Below are positions 38,412-44,264 of a stretch of DNA of 64,000 nt, in pieces. The position numbers and the translations under genes were made by a program. Source of the stretch: Sulfurimonas sp. (GTDB taxonomy: Bacteria; Campylobacterota; Campylobacteria; Campylobacterales; Sulfurimonadaceae); contig JAABQD010000008.1 of assembly GCA_011391635.1 (NCBI GenBank), positions 1 through 64,000 of the forward strand, in the 5' to 3' direction. Below the pieces are notes generated by a model. The model saw nothing but the letters and a program-made list of their open reading frames with translations. It ran no database searches and was not told where the DNA came from. The stretch's first letter is position 1. Each line of letters begins with the position of its first letter.

Positions 38412-38668
38412 AAATCATAAAACTCCAGTTTTTGTTAATGATTATTGTACTATAAAATCTTTGTAAATGGGCGTTCTTGAGCAAATATACAGATATATCA
38501 TCTTTTTTCATTTTAAGTTTTTTTATTTTATTATCTAAACAAATATAAATAATAATATATATTTACATTTTATAAATCATCTATCTCTTGTCAATAATAA
38601 AAAGTTATATTATAATAACAAGAAAAATCATCACAAAGTTATTATTTTTTAATATCAGGGATTTACGC

Positions 38669-39418
38669 ATGCAAGATAAAAATATTCTTATTATAGAAGA
38701 TGATGAAATCACAGCACTCAACCTAAGCTTATCACTCCAAAGACTCGGATACAATATCGTTGCGACATGCGATAACGCAGTAACAGCTAAAAATAAAATC
38801 CAAGCCTACTCTCCTGATATTGTCATCATTGATATCTCTTTGCAAGAGAGCAATGATGGAATACGCTTGGCAAAAGAGATAAAAACAAGATTTAACCTCC
38901 CTTTTATATATCTAAGTGCACATAGTGACGATGAAATAATTTTTCAAGCAAAGCAGACAGAGCCTTATGGCTATATAGTTAAACCATTTAATCCAAACTC
39001 TTTACATGCGACTATACAAATGGCTCTTTTCAAATATGAAATAGAAAACGAAAGAAAAAATGACATTCACTCTCTCAAAGTCGATAAACAAAACTTAGAA
39101 AAACTTCTCTATGCAAAAAAAGCATCCGATAAACCTGTTGTCTATTTTGGTCAAGATTATTACCTTGATATTCATATTTGTGAAACTTTTTACAAGGGTA
39201 AAAAGATTATGCTTACAAAAAAAGAGAACGCTTTTTTGAGGCTGTTGGTAGCACAGTTGGGTCTTGTTGTAAGCTTTGAACAAGCAATGAATTATGTTTG
39301 GGAAGAAAACGGTGCAACAGAAAACAGTGTACGCACATTGGTCTGGAGACTTCGAAGTAAACTCCAAGATGACATTATAAAAAATGCATCTGGGATAGGC
39401 TACTATATAGAGAACTAA
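38669..39418 (+). CDS. Response regulator with winged-helix output
   Basis: 249 residues: receiver with E10-D11-D12 pocket, D55 and the IVKPF lysine motif, a linker of about 30 residues and a C-terminal trans_reg_C domain (LTKKENAFLRLLV to SGIGYYIEN). I chose ATG at 38669 (AGGGA upstream); earlier in-frame codons are AT-rich leader. The receiver is of the ANTAR/CheY-like kind (PDIVIIDISLQ with Q in place of MP), unlike typical OmpR regulators. It converges with the hybrid kinase at 39415, overlapping by 4 nt, and may be its partner. Confidence 0.8.
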   Translation: MQDKNILIIEDDEITALNLSLSLQRLGYNIVATCDNAVTAKNKIQAYSPDIVIIDISLQESNDGIRLAKEIKTRFNLPFIYLSAHSDDEIIFQAKQTEPYGYIVKPFNPNSLHATIQMALFKYEIENERKNDIHSLKVDKQNLEKLLYAKKASDKPVVYFGQDYYLDIHICETFYKGKKIMLTKKENAFLRLLVAQLGLVVSFEQAMNYVWEENGATENSVRTLVWRLRSKLQDDIIKNASGIGYYIEN

Positions 39419-41700
39419 GCTGTTTTTATCTCTTGAATAATTCGTTGTATATCTAAAAATGTCTCTTCATATATATACTCACTATTTTTATCTTTAGCCA
39501 TTCGCTCCATCTCTCCTGCCCTATTTTGTAACACTTCCAATCGAAAATTTGCACTTGAACCTTTGATATTATGAGCAAGTAACGCTATTTTTTTATACTC
39601 TTTTTCTTTGATTGCATTTTGCAAGTCAAGTAATGATTGTTGCATCTTTTTGAGAAATAGATCCACAAGCATTCTAATCTCATCATCGTCTAATAAAAGC
39701 TCATCTCGAAGTTTTTGCATATCCAAGCCTCGAATAGACTCTTTTAAAATAGTTTTTGGCATGTGGAGTGGTGGAGAACTCTTTTTCACTTTGAGATATG
39801 TTAAAAAGAGTCTCTCAAGCTCTTTGAAACTAATAGGTTTTCCTAAAAAAGAGTCAAAACCACTCAGAAGTCCTCTCTCTCTCGCACCCTTAATTACATT
39901 TGCGGTCAATGCTGAGATGGGAGTATGCCTTGCTCCAATATCATTTTCATACTTCAGTATCTCTTTGAGAGCTTCTATACCATTCATAAGTGGCATTTGC
40001 TCATCCATCAAAATCAAGTCATATTTATTCTGTTTATAAAGAGTAAGAGCTTCTAAGCCATTGTTTGCTATATCAAAACTAAGTCCATATTTTGTCAGTA
40101 TAATCTTAACAAGTTCTTGATTTGCTTCATTGTCTTCAGCAATCAATATGTGACCATCAAATTGATACAAAGAGTTTTTATGAACACTTTTTTGAGAGCT
40201 TTGATAGAGCAACTCATTAAAAGCAGCGTAAATTTTTGAACAATAAAGTGGAAAACACATAGAAACAATATGCTCTTGTGTATCATACTCATCGTAATGT
40301 TTACTCATCAATGCAATAAACTTTTTGTGTGAGTTCAAAATACTATTTTTAAGCTTATAATCCATCTCTTCGTGAACAAAGAAGTAGATATCATGTCCCT
40401 CATCCAAAGTATCAACAAAACTCATAGTTATGCCAAAAGTATTTGCATATTTTAAAAGCGATTCATATTGATAGATAGTTTTTTTATTTTTAGAGTAAAG
40501 TGCTATTTTAAAGTTTTGTAAATTTCTCAAATCCTCAAATACATTACAGTCATTTGAATGAATTTCTACAGGAATCTCCATCCAAAAAAGACTTCCCTCG
40601 CCAAGGGTTGATTCTACATTAACACTTCCTTGCATATGCACTGCCAACTGATTACAGATAGACAATCCAAGCCCTGTTCCCCCACAGTTTGTGAGTTCAT
40701 CCGATTGTGCTTGAGCGAAAGCTGTAAATATCTTTTTGATATCTTTTTGCCCTATTCCGATGCCATTGTCTCGAACACTAATGCGTAGTTGTTTGGCTTT
40801 ACAACTTGCTTCTACAAAAATGACGCCACCACTCTTTGTAAATTTGATTGCATTACTCAAAAAATTAGACAAAATTTGTTTTATTCGTAGTGAATCAGCA
40901 TACAACTCTTTTGGAATAGCGGGGTCTATAAATGATGTGATAGTGATATCTTTACTCGTTGCACTGGCTATAAAAAGCTCCATAGTGTGACTAATCTCCT
41001 CATGGAGTGAAAAGATTTTTGGCTCAATAGTAAACTCGCCACTGCGAAGTTTTGAAAAGTCCAATATATCGTTGATGATACACAAAAGATTTTCACCACT
41101 ATTTTGAATGATATCGAGATATTTTCTATGTTTTTTTGATATGTCATCATCTATCAACAGATTTACAAATCCTAAAATTGCATTGAGAGGTGTTCTTATT
41201 TCATGAGACATATTGGAGAGAAAATACTCTTTTGCCTGAGAAGCATTCAAAGCTTCAAGCCTTGCATCGATAAGCCTTTGAAAAATAGTATCTGTATAAA
41301 ACTTCAAAATACCTCTAAAATTTTTATCAAAAATATAAGAAATTTCATCAAATATATTTTTAGAATTAAATCCAGCATCATACGAAAAATCAATCATAGC
41401 ACGGCGAAAATGGCTACATATCTCAAATAACTCATCCGCACTGATATCTTTATCTTTTAAGTATGCCAACAAATTTTGCATCACAGGGCAATTTCCTATT
41501 TCCACATTTCCAGAAATAACACCCATAAAATAGTCAAAAACTCCTCCAGCATATTTTGTAATAAACATTTGGGGTTCGATGTTGTGTTGCAGTAAAATTT
41601 TTTTAGGTGAGTCATATGCTATCCAATCTCCAAGAATTGTATCCTTGGAGGCTATAAACGCAGATTGGACTTCTACAAGAGAGTGAATATTGAGATTCAT
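39415..41700 (-). CDS. Hybrid histidine kinase with receiver and HPt domains
   Basis: Soluble phosphorelay kinase, 761 residues. N-terminal sensor (about 1-155) is all-helical with no clear family; it is followed by HisKA (His in [13 protein letters not shown]), an ATPase domain (N, G1 and G2 boxes with TGLGLS), a degenerate receiver, a real receiver (LILMDEQMPLMNG) and a C-terminal HPt with AHNIKGSS. No membrane segments, so it senses something inside the cell. A GGCATGTGGA copy at 39758 lies between receiver and HPt. Confidence 0.85.
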   Translation of the reverse strand: MNLNIHSLVEVQSAFIASKDTILGDWIAYDSPKKILLQHNIEPQMFITKYAGGVFDYFMGVISGNVEIGNCPVMQNLLAYLKDKDISADELFEICSHFRRAMIDFSYDAGFNSKNIFDEISYIFDKNFRGILKFYTDTIFQRLIDARLEALNASQAKEYFLSNMSHEIRTPLNAILGFVNLLIDDDISKKHRKYLDIIQNSGENLLCIINDILDFSKLRSGEFTIEPKIFSLHEEISHTMELFIASATSKDITITSFIDPAIPKELYADSLRIKQILSNFLSNAIKFTKSGGVIFVEASCKAKQLRISVRDNGIGIGQKDIKKIFTAFAQAQSDELTNCGGTGLGLSICNQLAVHMQGSVNVESTLGEGSLFWMEIPVEIHSNDCNVFEDLRNLQNFKIALYSKNKKTIYQYESLLKYANTFGITMSFVDTLDEGHDIYFFVHEEMDYKLKNSILNSHKKFIALMSKHYDEYDTQEHIVSMCFPLYCSKIYAAFNELLYQSSQKSVHKNSLYQFDGHILIAEDNEANQELVKIILTKYGLSFDIANNGLEALTLYKQNKYDLILMDEQMPLMNGIEALKEILKYENDIGARHTPISALTANVIKGARERGLLSGFDSFLGKPISFKELERLFLTYLKVKKSSPPLHMPKTILKESIRGLDMQKLRDELLLDDDEIRMLVDLFLKKMQQSLLDLQNAIKEKEYKKIALLAHNIKGSSANFRLEVLQNRAGEMERMAKDKNSEYIYEETFLDIQRIIQEIKTA

Positions 41701-41718: not shown

Positions 41719-42525
41719 CTATATTAGAAAGTATGAGACTATTGTTATCACCACTATTTTTACAAGTGCAATAAGTGTTGTCCCTATTATATTACCACTT
41801 TGACAACTCACACATGATGTATATAGCTTAGCTTCGTAATGTGCATAAAAGAAATAGCCAATATTTGTTACAAGTGCAACAAGCGAAAGAGTAAGTTGAA
41901 TATTCCACATGCCAGAATGTATTGCATCACTCACAAAAAAGGATGCACCAAGAAGCAGAACCATTGCAATGAGTAAAATATTGGAAGCTTTTACAAAATA
42001 GTCTCTTTTAAAAGTCGTAGGACAACTCTCTGAAATAACTATATCTGAACCAAATTCTAATTGTTTCTCAAATTTTGCTTTTTCTTGTTTAGATAATTTA
42101 CTTAAAAAGGTCGCACCAAAATTATAATCTAGCTTTCTTTGAATCAAAACGCTTCTTGCTCCACTTGCTTTGAGTGAGCATTGGGTGGCATCTCTATCTT
42201 GATAAATGATACTAATTGCATCATGTCTTTGAATCTCTGCACTACGGTTTGGAAAGTAGGCTGTTGTTTCTATTGTTGTTATTTTATCTTTTGTACTTAT
42301 AAGTCTTGGGTTAATTAACTCTAAAAAAGTTCCATCTTCTTCTTTTATGACAACAACATTAAAATAACTCCCAATCTGAAATGCGGCGAGAGCTTCCAAG
42401 TTATTTGCATTAATAGTGTCTTTTAAATCTTCAATAAGTGAAAATATATCTTCGTTAAAATTTCTAACATCTGTTCCATACTCAACACTTGGTGGCGTTG
42501 GATATTTGATTATCTCTTGTACCAT
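41719..42525 (-). CDS. Membrane protein with inactive peptide-deformylase domain
   Basis: 268 residues. Residues 1-150 follow the peptide deformylase fold: IIKYPTPP start, ALAAFQIG for motif 1 (usually GLAAPQIG), INPRLI, then ETTAYFP for EGCLSxP and QRKLDYNFG for QHExDHLxG. The Cys and both His metal ligands and the catalytic Glu are thus replaced (T88, R130, Y134, K131), so it cannot be a working deformylase. Residues about 185-268 add three membrane helices and a CVSC pair. It may have become a binding or regulatory domain. It lies after the SQR-like gene and a small-protein gene on the same strand. Confidence 0.75.
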   Translation of the reverse strand: MVQEIIKYPTPPSVEYGTDVRNFNEDIFSLIEDLKDTINANNLEALAAFQIGSYFNVVVIKEEDGTFLELINPRLISTKDKITTIETTAYFPNRSAEIQRHDAISIIYQDRDATQCSLKASGARSVLIQRKLDYNFGATFLSKLSKQEKAKFEKQLEFGSDIVISESCPTTFKRDYFVKASNILLIAMVLLLGASFFVSDAIHSGMWNIQLTLSLVALVTNIGYFFYAHYEAKLYTSCVSCQSGNIIGTTLIALVKIVVITIVSYFLI

Positions 42526-42570: not shown

Positions 42571-42598
42571 AAATGCCCTAGAAAATTCTAAGGCATTT
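42571..42598 (-). terminator. Strong hairpin between small ORF and pseudo-deformylase gene
   Basis: AAATGCCCTAGAA and TTCTAAGGCATTT pair over 13 bp with one mismatch and a 2-base loop. It follows the 54-residue ORF by 7 bp and precedes the next start by 46 bp. There is no T-run, so it could stabilise or partly terminate the transcript. Confidence 0.55.
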
Positions 42599-42604
42599 GG
42601 AGTA

Positions 42605-42769
42605 TTAGTGGCTTTTACTTACTACCACTAGCATCTTGATGTTAATTATTACAAATCGAATCGCTTGAAAAATCACACAAGTTCTTAAGAACTTTGCAAC
42701 TGGTCCAGGTGTCATTGTAGTAAAATTGTTTCCGTACGCTCTAATGTTTTTTTCGCCATATTTTGACAT
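42605..42769 (-). CDS. Small 54-residue protein after the flavoprotein gene
   Basis: Short frame opened by an ATG with AAGGAA at ideal distance. The product starts MSKYGEKNIRAYGNNF, has TTMTPGPVAK in the middle and a hydrophobic, basic C-terminal helix (about 33-51). One Cys (RTCVIF). I do not recognise a family. It is 25 bp downstream of the flavoprotein gene on the same strand, so it is likely part of that transcript. Confidence 0.6.
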   Translation of the reverse strand: MSKYGEKNIRAYGNNFTTMTPGPVAKFLRTCVIFQAIRFVIINIKMLVVVSKSH

Positions 42770-42794: not shown

Positions 42795-44264
42795 TTATTC
42801 TGGGATAAGTGTCCAGCCAGCTTTTAGCTTAGCTTTCCAAATAAACAAGTGGTGTAAAATGTGTTTAATCCAGTGACCTGCAAGACCGATTTCACCAAAA
42901 GTATAATCTGTATCACGACCAGTTCCTGGGTATTTTTCAAAGTCTGGCACAACTGGATAGATTGTCATCGCAGCTGCAGTTCCAGTAAATAAACCTTTAC
43001 CAGCAGAAGCAACACAAGCAGCACCCATGTGAGCCATAGAAGCTTCATGTAATGGAGCATCTGGACCTTTTGTAATTAAATCACACACAGAATGAGCAAC
43101 AGCTTTACCCATGATACCTGAAGGCATACCAGTTCTTGGAGGTGTTGGGTTGATTGGAGTACCATTTGGTGAACTCATTGGTTTAGAAATTGGATGTGGT
43201 GGTGCAAAAGCGATTCCACAAGCAAATAAGTTTTTATATGTAGGGTTTTGGTACGTTTTAGGCCAGTCACTTGCTTTCCAATTTTCATACGCACCCGCTG
43301 CATAGTTCGCATCTACTTTCATAAATCCATTTGGAGCAAAAACAGTAGCTGTAATATCTTCACCTGCTTTGTTAATAGCTTTTAAGCCAACACCAGCAAA
43401 CGGAGGAATAAGCATAGAGAAGTCAAACTCTTCTTCACCCATACTTCCATCAAGAAGTTCATAGTGAACTTTTCCTTTTTCTACTTTGTTTACATGTGCA
43501 CCGATAATCCAATCCACATCTCTCTCAGCAAATAGAGACTCAGCGAAAATTTTTGAACTTACCGCAAAGCCCATAGCTTTCATGTGAAGTCCGCCAACAC
43601 CAAAGTCACCTAAGAATGACTCATTTGAAATCCACTTGATTTCAGCCATATCACGAACACCCGCTTTTTTCAACTCATGTTCTATATTGAAAATATACTC
43701 AAAAGCAGCACCTTGGCATGTACACATACCATGTCCAGTTCCGATTAGGAACTTTTGGCGTTCCCCTTTTTTCATTTTTTCTATAGCTTTTTGAAGCTCT
43801 TCATTTGCATGAGTAGCGTGATCTGCTGTACAAACAGAAACAGTAAATTCACCTAAACCATTTGCATCACCCAAACCTGGAGTTGCTGCAAAGTTCAGTT
43901 TTGGTCCTGTTGCGTTGATAAGATAATCATATTCTATGTTCTCAATCTGCCCAGCTTTACCAGCTTCTGTTGACTCTATAACAACATAAGGTTTATCACT
44001 TGTCTCATTCCCTTCTGGGTGAATTCCAAGTGCTTTTGCTTGGTGATACTTAATACCAGCCTTCGCATATACAGGTGCTAAATCAAAAGTAACATCTTCT
44101 TTTGTCATTTGACCAACACCAACCCAAATATTTGATGGAATCCAGTTCCACTTTGCATTTGGAGTTACAACTACAACTTCATGAGCTGAACCTAACCATT
44201 CTGCTGCGAAAGTCGCAGCAGTGTGTCCTGAGACACCGCCCCCTAAAACAACTAATCTTGCCAT
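42795..44264 (-). CDS. Sulfide:quinone reductase-family flavoprotein
   Basis: FAD-dependent pyridine-nucleotide-disulfide oxidoreductase of 489 residues. N-terminal dinucleotide site GGGVSGHTAA, an ATGP motif, Cys-rich HGMCTCQGAAFE near 205 and a later Cys in HMGAACVASAG. The paired distant cysteines and the C-terminal amphipathic/aromatic tail (HILHHLFIWKAKLKAGW) fit sulfide:quinone oxidoreductase or flavocytochrome c sulfide dehydrogenase relatives that oxidise sulfide and pass electrons to quinone. The exact type is not settled. GAGGA precedes the ATG. Confidence 0.75.
   Translation of the reverse strand: MARLVVLGGGVSGHTAATFAAEWLGSAHEVVVVTPNAKWNWIPSNIWVGVGQMTKEDVTFDLAPVYAKAGIKYHQAKALGIHPEGNETSDKPYVVIESTEAGKAGQIENIEYDYLINATGPKLNFAATPGLGDANGLGEFTVSVCTADHATHANEELQKAIEKMKKGERQKFLIGTGHGMCTCQGAAFEYIFNIEHELKKAGVRDMAEIKWISNESFLGDFGVGGLHMKAMGFAVSSKIFAESLFAERDVDWIIGAHVNKVEKGKVHYELLDGSMGEEEFDFSMLIPPFAGVGLKAINKAGEDITATVFAPNGFMKVDANYAAGAYENWKASDWPKTYQNPTYKNLFACGIAFAPPHPISKPMSSPNGTPINPTPPRTGMPSGIMGKAVAHSVCDLITKGPDAPLHEASMAHMGAACVASAGKGLFTGTAAAMTIYPVVPDFEKYPGTGRDTDYTFGEIGLAGHWIKHILHHLFIWKAKLKAGWTLIPE

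Follow-up and report, generated by a model that had tools for sequence, protein, structure and literature searches.

A pseudo-deformylase with a membrane tail, genomically linked to sulfide:quinone oxidoreductase in Campylobacterota

Few bacterial enzymes have been studied as thoroughly as peptide deformylase, which is also a drug target. The window analyzed here, a 64,000-nucleotide stretch of Sulfurimonas sp. DNA, contains a gene whose product resembles this enzyme, lacks its catalytic residues and carries three membrane helices, which raises the question of what such a protein is and what it is kept for. The gene and its parts are as follows:

41719–42525, minus strand: pseudo-deformylase gene, 268 aa, with three C-terminal transmembrane helices (Pfam, AlphaFold, 97 distinct relatives)
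42052–42525, minus strand: deformylase-fold domain, residues 1–158, predicted cytoplasmic (Pfam match to residues 3–149; Foldseek TM 0.86 by target to 2ew5)
42370–42399, minus strand: motif I, LEALAAFQIG (GIGLAAxQV in active enzymes), with Q50 kept and the first half altered
42250–42270, minus strand: motif II, ETTAYFP (active, EGCLSxP), with the metal-binding Cys replaced by T88
42115–42141, minus strand: motif III, QRKLDYNFG (active, QHExDHxxG), with His-Glu-His replaced by R130, K131 and Y134
42016–42024, minus strand: conserved juxtamembrane CPT motif with C168 (Cys in 93/97 relatives)
41935–42012, minus strand: predicted transmembrane helix 1, residues 172–197 (AlphaFold model, topology prediction)
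41824–41928, minus strand: predicted transmembrane helix 2, residues 200–234 (AlphaFold model)
41803–41814, minus strand: CxSC motif (C238, C241) in the loop between helices 2 and 3, predicted on the cytoplasmic side (both Cys in 97/97; positive-inside bias)
41725–41781, minus strand: hydrophobic core of predicted transmembrane helix 3 (AlphaFold model, topology prediction)

The initial annotation of this locus, whose coordinates for the open reading frame proved exact, had proposed a deformylase fold in which all three motifs can still be aligned, and both Pfam and the alignment with PDB entries agree. The Pfam family Pep_deformylase (PF01327) matched residues 3–149 with E=4.5e-28 and 98 bits, where the cut-off is 22.8. 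When the pseudo-deformylase family was searched as a profile, essentially deformylases alone were retrieved from the PDB; the NCBIfam equivalog models for the active enzyme stayed below their curated cut-offs on the window protein (68 bits vs 104). Structure prediction, the check that had been suggested, was performed with AlphaFold on 61 sequences and gave a mean pLDDT of 87, with about 95 across most of the deformylase domain. The top PDB match of the model in Foldseek was the H. pylori deformylase 2ew5 (E=3.2e-15, TM 0.86 by target); as the alignment included 52 active viral deformylases, picked by their HExDH-type motif, the model is biased toward this fold, while the sequence evidence is independent of it. 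With nine close relatives alone the pLDDT was 61, and that model was left out of the fold search. A single-protein scan of viral proteins with a real Def as query gave no match. Homology of the fold to deformylase is certain.

In the model, residues 172–267 form three helices (172–197, 200–234 and 236–267) with CVSC at residues 238–241, in line with the membrane tail described initially. The charge distribution (positive-inside) favors placing both the N-terminus and the CxSC loop in the cytoplasm. A Pfam match of the tail to KdgT (E=0.03) was put down to noise. The third conserved cysteine, C168, had been missed in the initial annotation.

The metal ligands Cys90, His132 and His136 and the catalytic Glu133 of the active E. 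coli enzyme are all absent from the window protein, where T88, R130, Y134 and K131, respectively, occupy the aligned positions. The solved deformylases in the alignment give the identical pattern. The replacements proved conserved among 97 distinct relatives: position 88 is T in 88, S in 4, D in 4 and N in 1, never Cys; position 130 is R in 92 and His in 2 (as QHQ..Y); position 131 is K in 91, Q in 5 and M in 1, never Glu; and position 134 is Y in 90, never His. No relative has an intact active site, while the full catalytic set is kept in 8/8 real Def proteins of the same phylum. The claim that every metal ligand is replaced therefore holds for the window protein, but not strictly for the family, since the first His persists in two of the 97. 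A sub-branch (L239, L240, L242) has QHQ or QQQ plus Y at motif III; its two His-keeping members lack the Glu, the second His and the Cys. Invariant scaffold residues are N72, E86, R100, Q129, D133 and G137. C238 and C241 occur in all 97 relatives and C168 in 93.

Features behind substrate binding and ribosome docking have been lost as well. In active deformylase, the hydrophobic residues I44 and L125 of the S1' pocket accommodate the Met side chain of the substrate; in the pseudo-deformylases these positions are mainly D/E/N/A. The C-terminal helix, which is basic and docks the active E. coli deformylase onto the ribosome, carries a charge of +6 to +9 (mean +7.6) in real Defs and of −1.0 on average in the pseudo-deformylases. 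The polar pocket and the lost charge argue against binding of formyl-Met or the ribosome.

The pseudo-deformylases group as a single clade in a phylogenetic tree (support 100/100), and the stem leading to it measures 0.77 changes per site. Pairwise dN/dS between relatives was 0.06–0.15, indicating purifying selection; several pairs had saturated dS, and the less diverged ones gave 0.07–0.15. A search for a real def gene elsewhere in the genome, also suggested initially, found one with intact EGCLS and QHEMDH on contig C26 (G000:C26:13738). Catalytic residues have thus been lost in a clade that is under purifying selection and whose active paralogue is kept, and on sequence grounds the window protein is a pseudoenzyme derived from deformylase. 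A recent wreck was rejected because of the conserved replacements, the single clade, the purifying selection and the true def elsewhere. Among 72,556 plasmids searched, one match to the membrane tail was obtained, in Sulfurovum. On a Sulfurovum mangrovi plasmid (NZ_CP087125.1; L247:5868-6683), a break in the reading frame divides the pseudo-deformylase copy, which is annotated as two 'peptide deformylase' genes. As a database-pipeline name for this family, 'peptide deformylase' is misleading.

The surroundings of the gene point to sulfide oxidation. The neighboring features in the window are:

42795–44264, minus strand: type IV-like sulfide:quinone oxidoreductase (SQR), 489 aa, first gene of the cassette (PDB 3hyv match, E=1e-42)
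42605–42769, minus strand: unannotated small gene, 54 aa, with a C-terminal hydrophobic segment ending in KSH (conservation; dN/dS 0.02–0.06)
42571–42598, minus strand: 12-bp RNA hairpin between the small gene and the pseudo-deformylase gene (z=−4.07)
39415–41700, minus strand: hybrid histidine kinase (HisKA, HATPase, receiver, Hpt), 18 bp downstream of the pseudo-deformylase gene, lineage-specific and outside the conserved core

Relative to the Aquifex SQR (3hyv), the window SQR keeps three Cys positions (C124, C156, C347). In a published survey, type IV is the SQR type shared by every Sulfurimonas genome covered (PMC4584964), and because the window SQR is similarly widespread we take it as type IV-like, an assignment by resemblance and published distribution rather than by a typed tree. 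Across 397 Campylobacterota genomes, the pseudo-deformylase was found in 79 and SQR in 111. All 79 genomes with the pseudo-deformylase have SQR, and none of the 286 SQR-negative genomes has the pseudo-deformylase (Fisher p=1e-57, which overstates independence, as the genomes are related by ancestry). In 71 genomes both genes are same-strand neighbors, always with SQR first and 206–571 bp apart; among the first 68 loci, the pseudo-deformylase directly follows an SQR-like gene in about 57, and most of the remaining loci are second copies or lie at contig ends. The initial suggestion of a job near sulfide oxidation fits this strong linkage. The pseudo-deformylase is missing from 32 of the 111 SQR-positive genomes, and in an SQR tree obtained by a quick search the early branches lack it, with the carriers nested and losses scattered. 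The SQR–small protein–pseudo-deformylase cassette was also seen in isolated Arcobacteraceae-like genomes (L241 in G128; L037). The SQR of G128 is 91% identical to that of the window, which suggests that the whole cassette may have been transferred into this genome.

Not all copies lie beside SQR. In the 24 listed loci that are non-SQR or unclear, a MerR regulator is close by in nine, a CMD/AhpD-like gene is present in eight, a DsrE-like gene in four and YeeE/YedE-type sulfur transport in two. The neighborhood of MerR, CMD (AhpD-like), DsrE and sulfur transport recurs (L049, L050, L235, L237, L222, L223, L239, L240, L047). Other SQR-distant copies sit among housekeeping genes.

Between SQR and the pseudo-deformylase gene, the initial annotation had left out both the small protein and the hairpin. 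The small gene is preceded by a ribosome-binding site, and its product occurs in 57/57 SQR-linked pseudo-deformylase loci with the consensus TM.PG.fa..mRTC.IwQfIRF..INiKM..VV.KSH. It also follows every examined SQR that has no adjacent pseudo-deformylase (32 genomes and three second SQR copies), is kept behind SQRs as distant as about 53% identity, and follows SQR on plasmids of Thiodictyon (gammaproteobacteria) and Marivivens (alphaproteobacteria), whose annotation calls it 'hypothetical protein'. Altogether, this membrane-type protein of about 54 aa was found behind SQR in all of the approximately 90 loci examined, and no Pfam or NCBIfam family matches it. In one locus (L240), the small protein and the pseudo-deformylase occur with SQR absent. 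As the small protein follows SQRs that lack the pseudo-deformylase, SQR and the small protein appear to be the older pair and the pseudo-deformylase a later third member, an order with which the SQR tree agrees. The small protein may be a small subunit common to type IV-like SQRs in general, and it is perhaps of more far-reaching interest than the pseudo-deformylase itself.

In 62 of 83 loci, some of which are redundant, the gap between the small gene and the pseudo-deformylase gene holds a stem of 9 bp or more with a changed sequence. No U-tract follows the stem in the window. The hairpin may stabilize or separate the message of SQR and the small protein, and suggests that the pseudo-deformylase is expressed below SQR.

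Which function do these data favor? We lean toward the pseudo-deformylase being a membrane-anchored accessory of the type IV-like SQR, a reading that we consider somewhat more likely than not. The core module would be SQR with the small membrane-type protein, to which the pseudo-deformylase would have been added in a single event as a third component, within part of the Campylobacterota SQRs. We infer that its binding partner at the cytoplasmic membrane face is SQR, the small protein or both, possibly contacted via the old substrate side of the fold, which is now lined by T/R/K/Y. More speculatively, C168, C238 and C241, clustered at the predicted cytoplasmic face, might accept or relay SQR-derived sulfane sulfur; equally speculatively, they might form a redox or metal site. 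The lower expression that the hairpin suggests would suit a factor for assembly or transfer, not a subunit present at 1:1. The DsrE, YeeE/YedE-type sulfur transport and CMD/AhpD-like genes beside some non-SQR copies are supporting context. Counting against an accessory role, SQR can work without the pseudo-deformylase, as the 32 SQR-positive genomes lacking it indicate; some SQR-distant copies have plain housekeeping contexts, the co-occurrence is inflated by shared ancestry, and C168 is missing in four relatives. The more specific proposal, a multi-component type IV-like SQR in which the empty site and the three cysteines of the pseudo-deformylase receive sulfane sulfur (persulfide or polysulfide) and pass it on, we regard as possible but rather unlikely.

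Other readings were weighed against an SQR accessory. A dedicated maturation or membrane-insertion factor for SQR, active in flavin loading or placement with no role in turnover, is likewise an unlikely but serious candidate: the positionally conserved hairpin suggests lower expression, the genes seem to travel together, as into the Arcobacteraceae genome, and TAT motifs have been reported for the type II SQRs of Sulfurimonas and not for type IV (PMC4584964). Against this, SQRs without the pseudo-deformylase are common, and maturation alone leaves the three nearly invariant cysteines unexplained. The membrane cysteines and the pocket could instead sense sulfide or polysulfide and signal to the downstream hybrid histidine kinase. 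This kinase is soluble and has no sensor domain recognized by Pfam; no Pfam family matches the roughly 150 aa of its N-terminus. Its cluster adjoins the pseudo-deformylase in 45 of 68 loci, and a response regulator lies beside it. Other genome families with SQR and pseudo-deformylase have no adjacent kinase, and we hold a sensor, though still a serious rival, to be quite improbable. The response regulator (38588–39418, plus strand, beside the kinase) recurs near the pseudo-deformylase.

Two further readings start from the deformylase itself. The initial annotation had considered binding of N-terminal formyl-Met peptides, and a membrane receptor that reads such peptides or nascent chains and binds them without cleavage would make use of the retained fold and oxyanion Gln (Q50). 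The exchange of I44 and L125 for D/E/N/A and the helix charge of −1.0 instead of +7.6 disfavor it, and it would leave the restriction to SQR-positive genomes unexplained, which makes this receptor very improbable. A functionless, decaying duplicate of def would account for the missing catalytic residues. It has already been refuted by conservation, namely by purifying selection on conserved replacement residues, one ancient origin, frames that are open in nearly all genomes and a conserved context, and we give it practically no credence.

The deformylase fold has thus apparently been given a second job in sulfide oxidation, and a sulfur relay, if true, would be a new role for it. In agreement with the initial statement that such a pseudo-deformylase has no described role, the open-access literature yielded nothing relevant on a pseudo-deformylase, on a deformylase with SQR or on a deformylase in Sulfurimonas, nor any described deformylase family that lacks the whole metal site and is kept by selection for another task. 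In the open-access literature on SQR, neither a small accessory protein nor a pseudo-deformylase was found, and the small protein, conserved with SQR across phyla, has been overlooked.

Compared with peptide deformylase (Def/PDF, PF01327; H. pylori 2ew5, E. coli 1bs4), the pseudo-deformylase shares the fold, the motif order, about 25–32% identity and the residues Q50, E86, R100, Q129, D133 and G137. It differs in lacking the metal ligands, the catalytic Glu and the basic ribosome-binding helix, in its polar S1' pocket, and in having a three-helix membrane domain with CxSC and a linkage to SQR. Two E. coli deformylase structures with hydrosulfide (4al2, 4az4) were among the Foldseek matches, a curiosity only, as the hydrosulfide is presumably held by the metal. 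The fold is also common to phage-encoded deformylases, of which the PDB entries 3uwa and 5mtc were among the family-profile matches; unlike the pseudo-deformylase, the phage enzymes compared here were chosen by an HExDH-type motif. We know of no phage deformylase in which every ligand is replaced or that carries a membrane tail. Relative to type IV SQR (SqrD; Chlorobium CT0117; Sulfurimonas type IV), the window flavoprotein of 489 aa has its cysteine positions as in the Aquifex SQR. The SQR to which the pseudo-deformylase is tied occurs in nearly all Sulfurimonas and is also common among related sulfide oxidizers. How the SQR types differ in role and product is a recognized gap in knowledge (PMC4584964); through the pseudo-deformylase and the small protein, the function of the extra parts of type IV SQR and the destination of its sulfur become directly testable.
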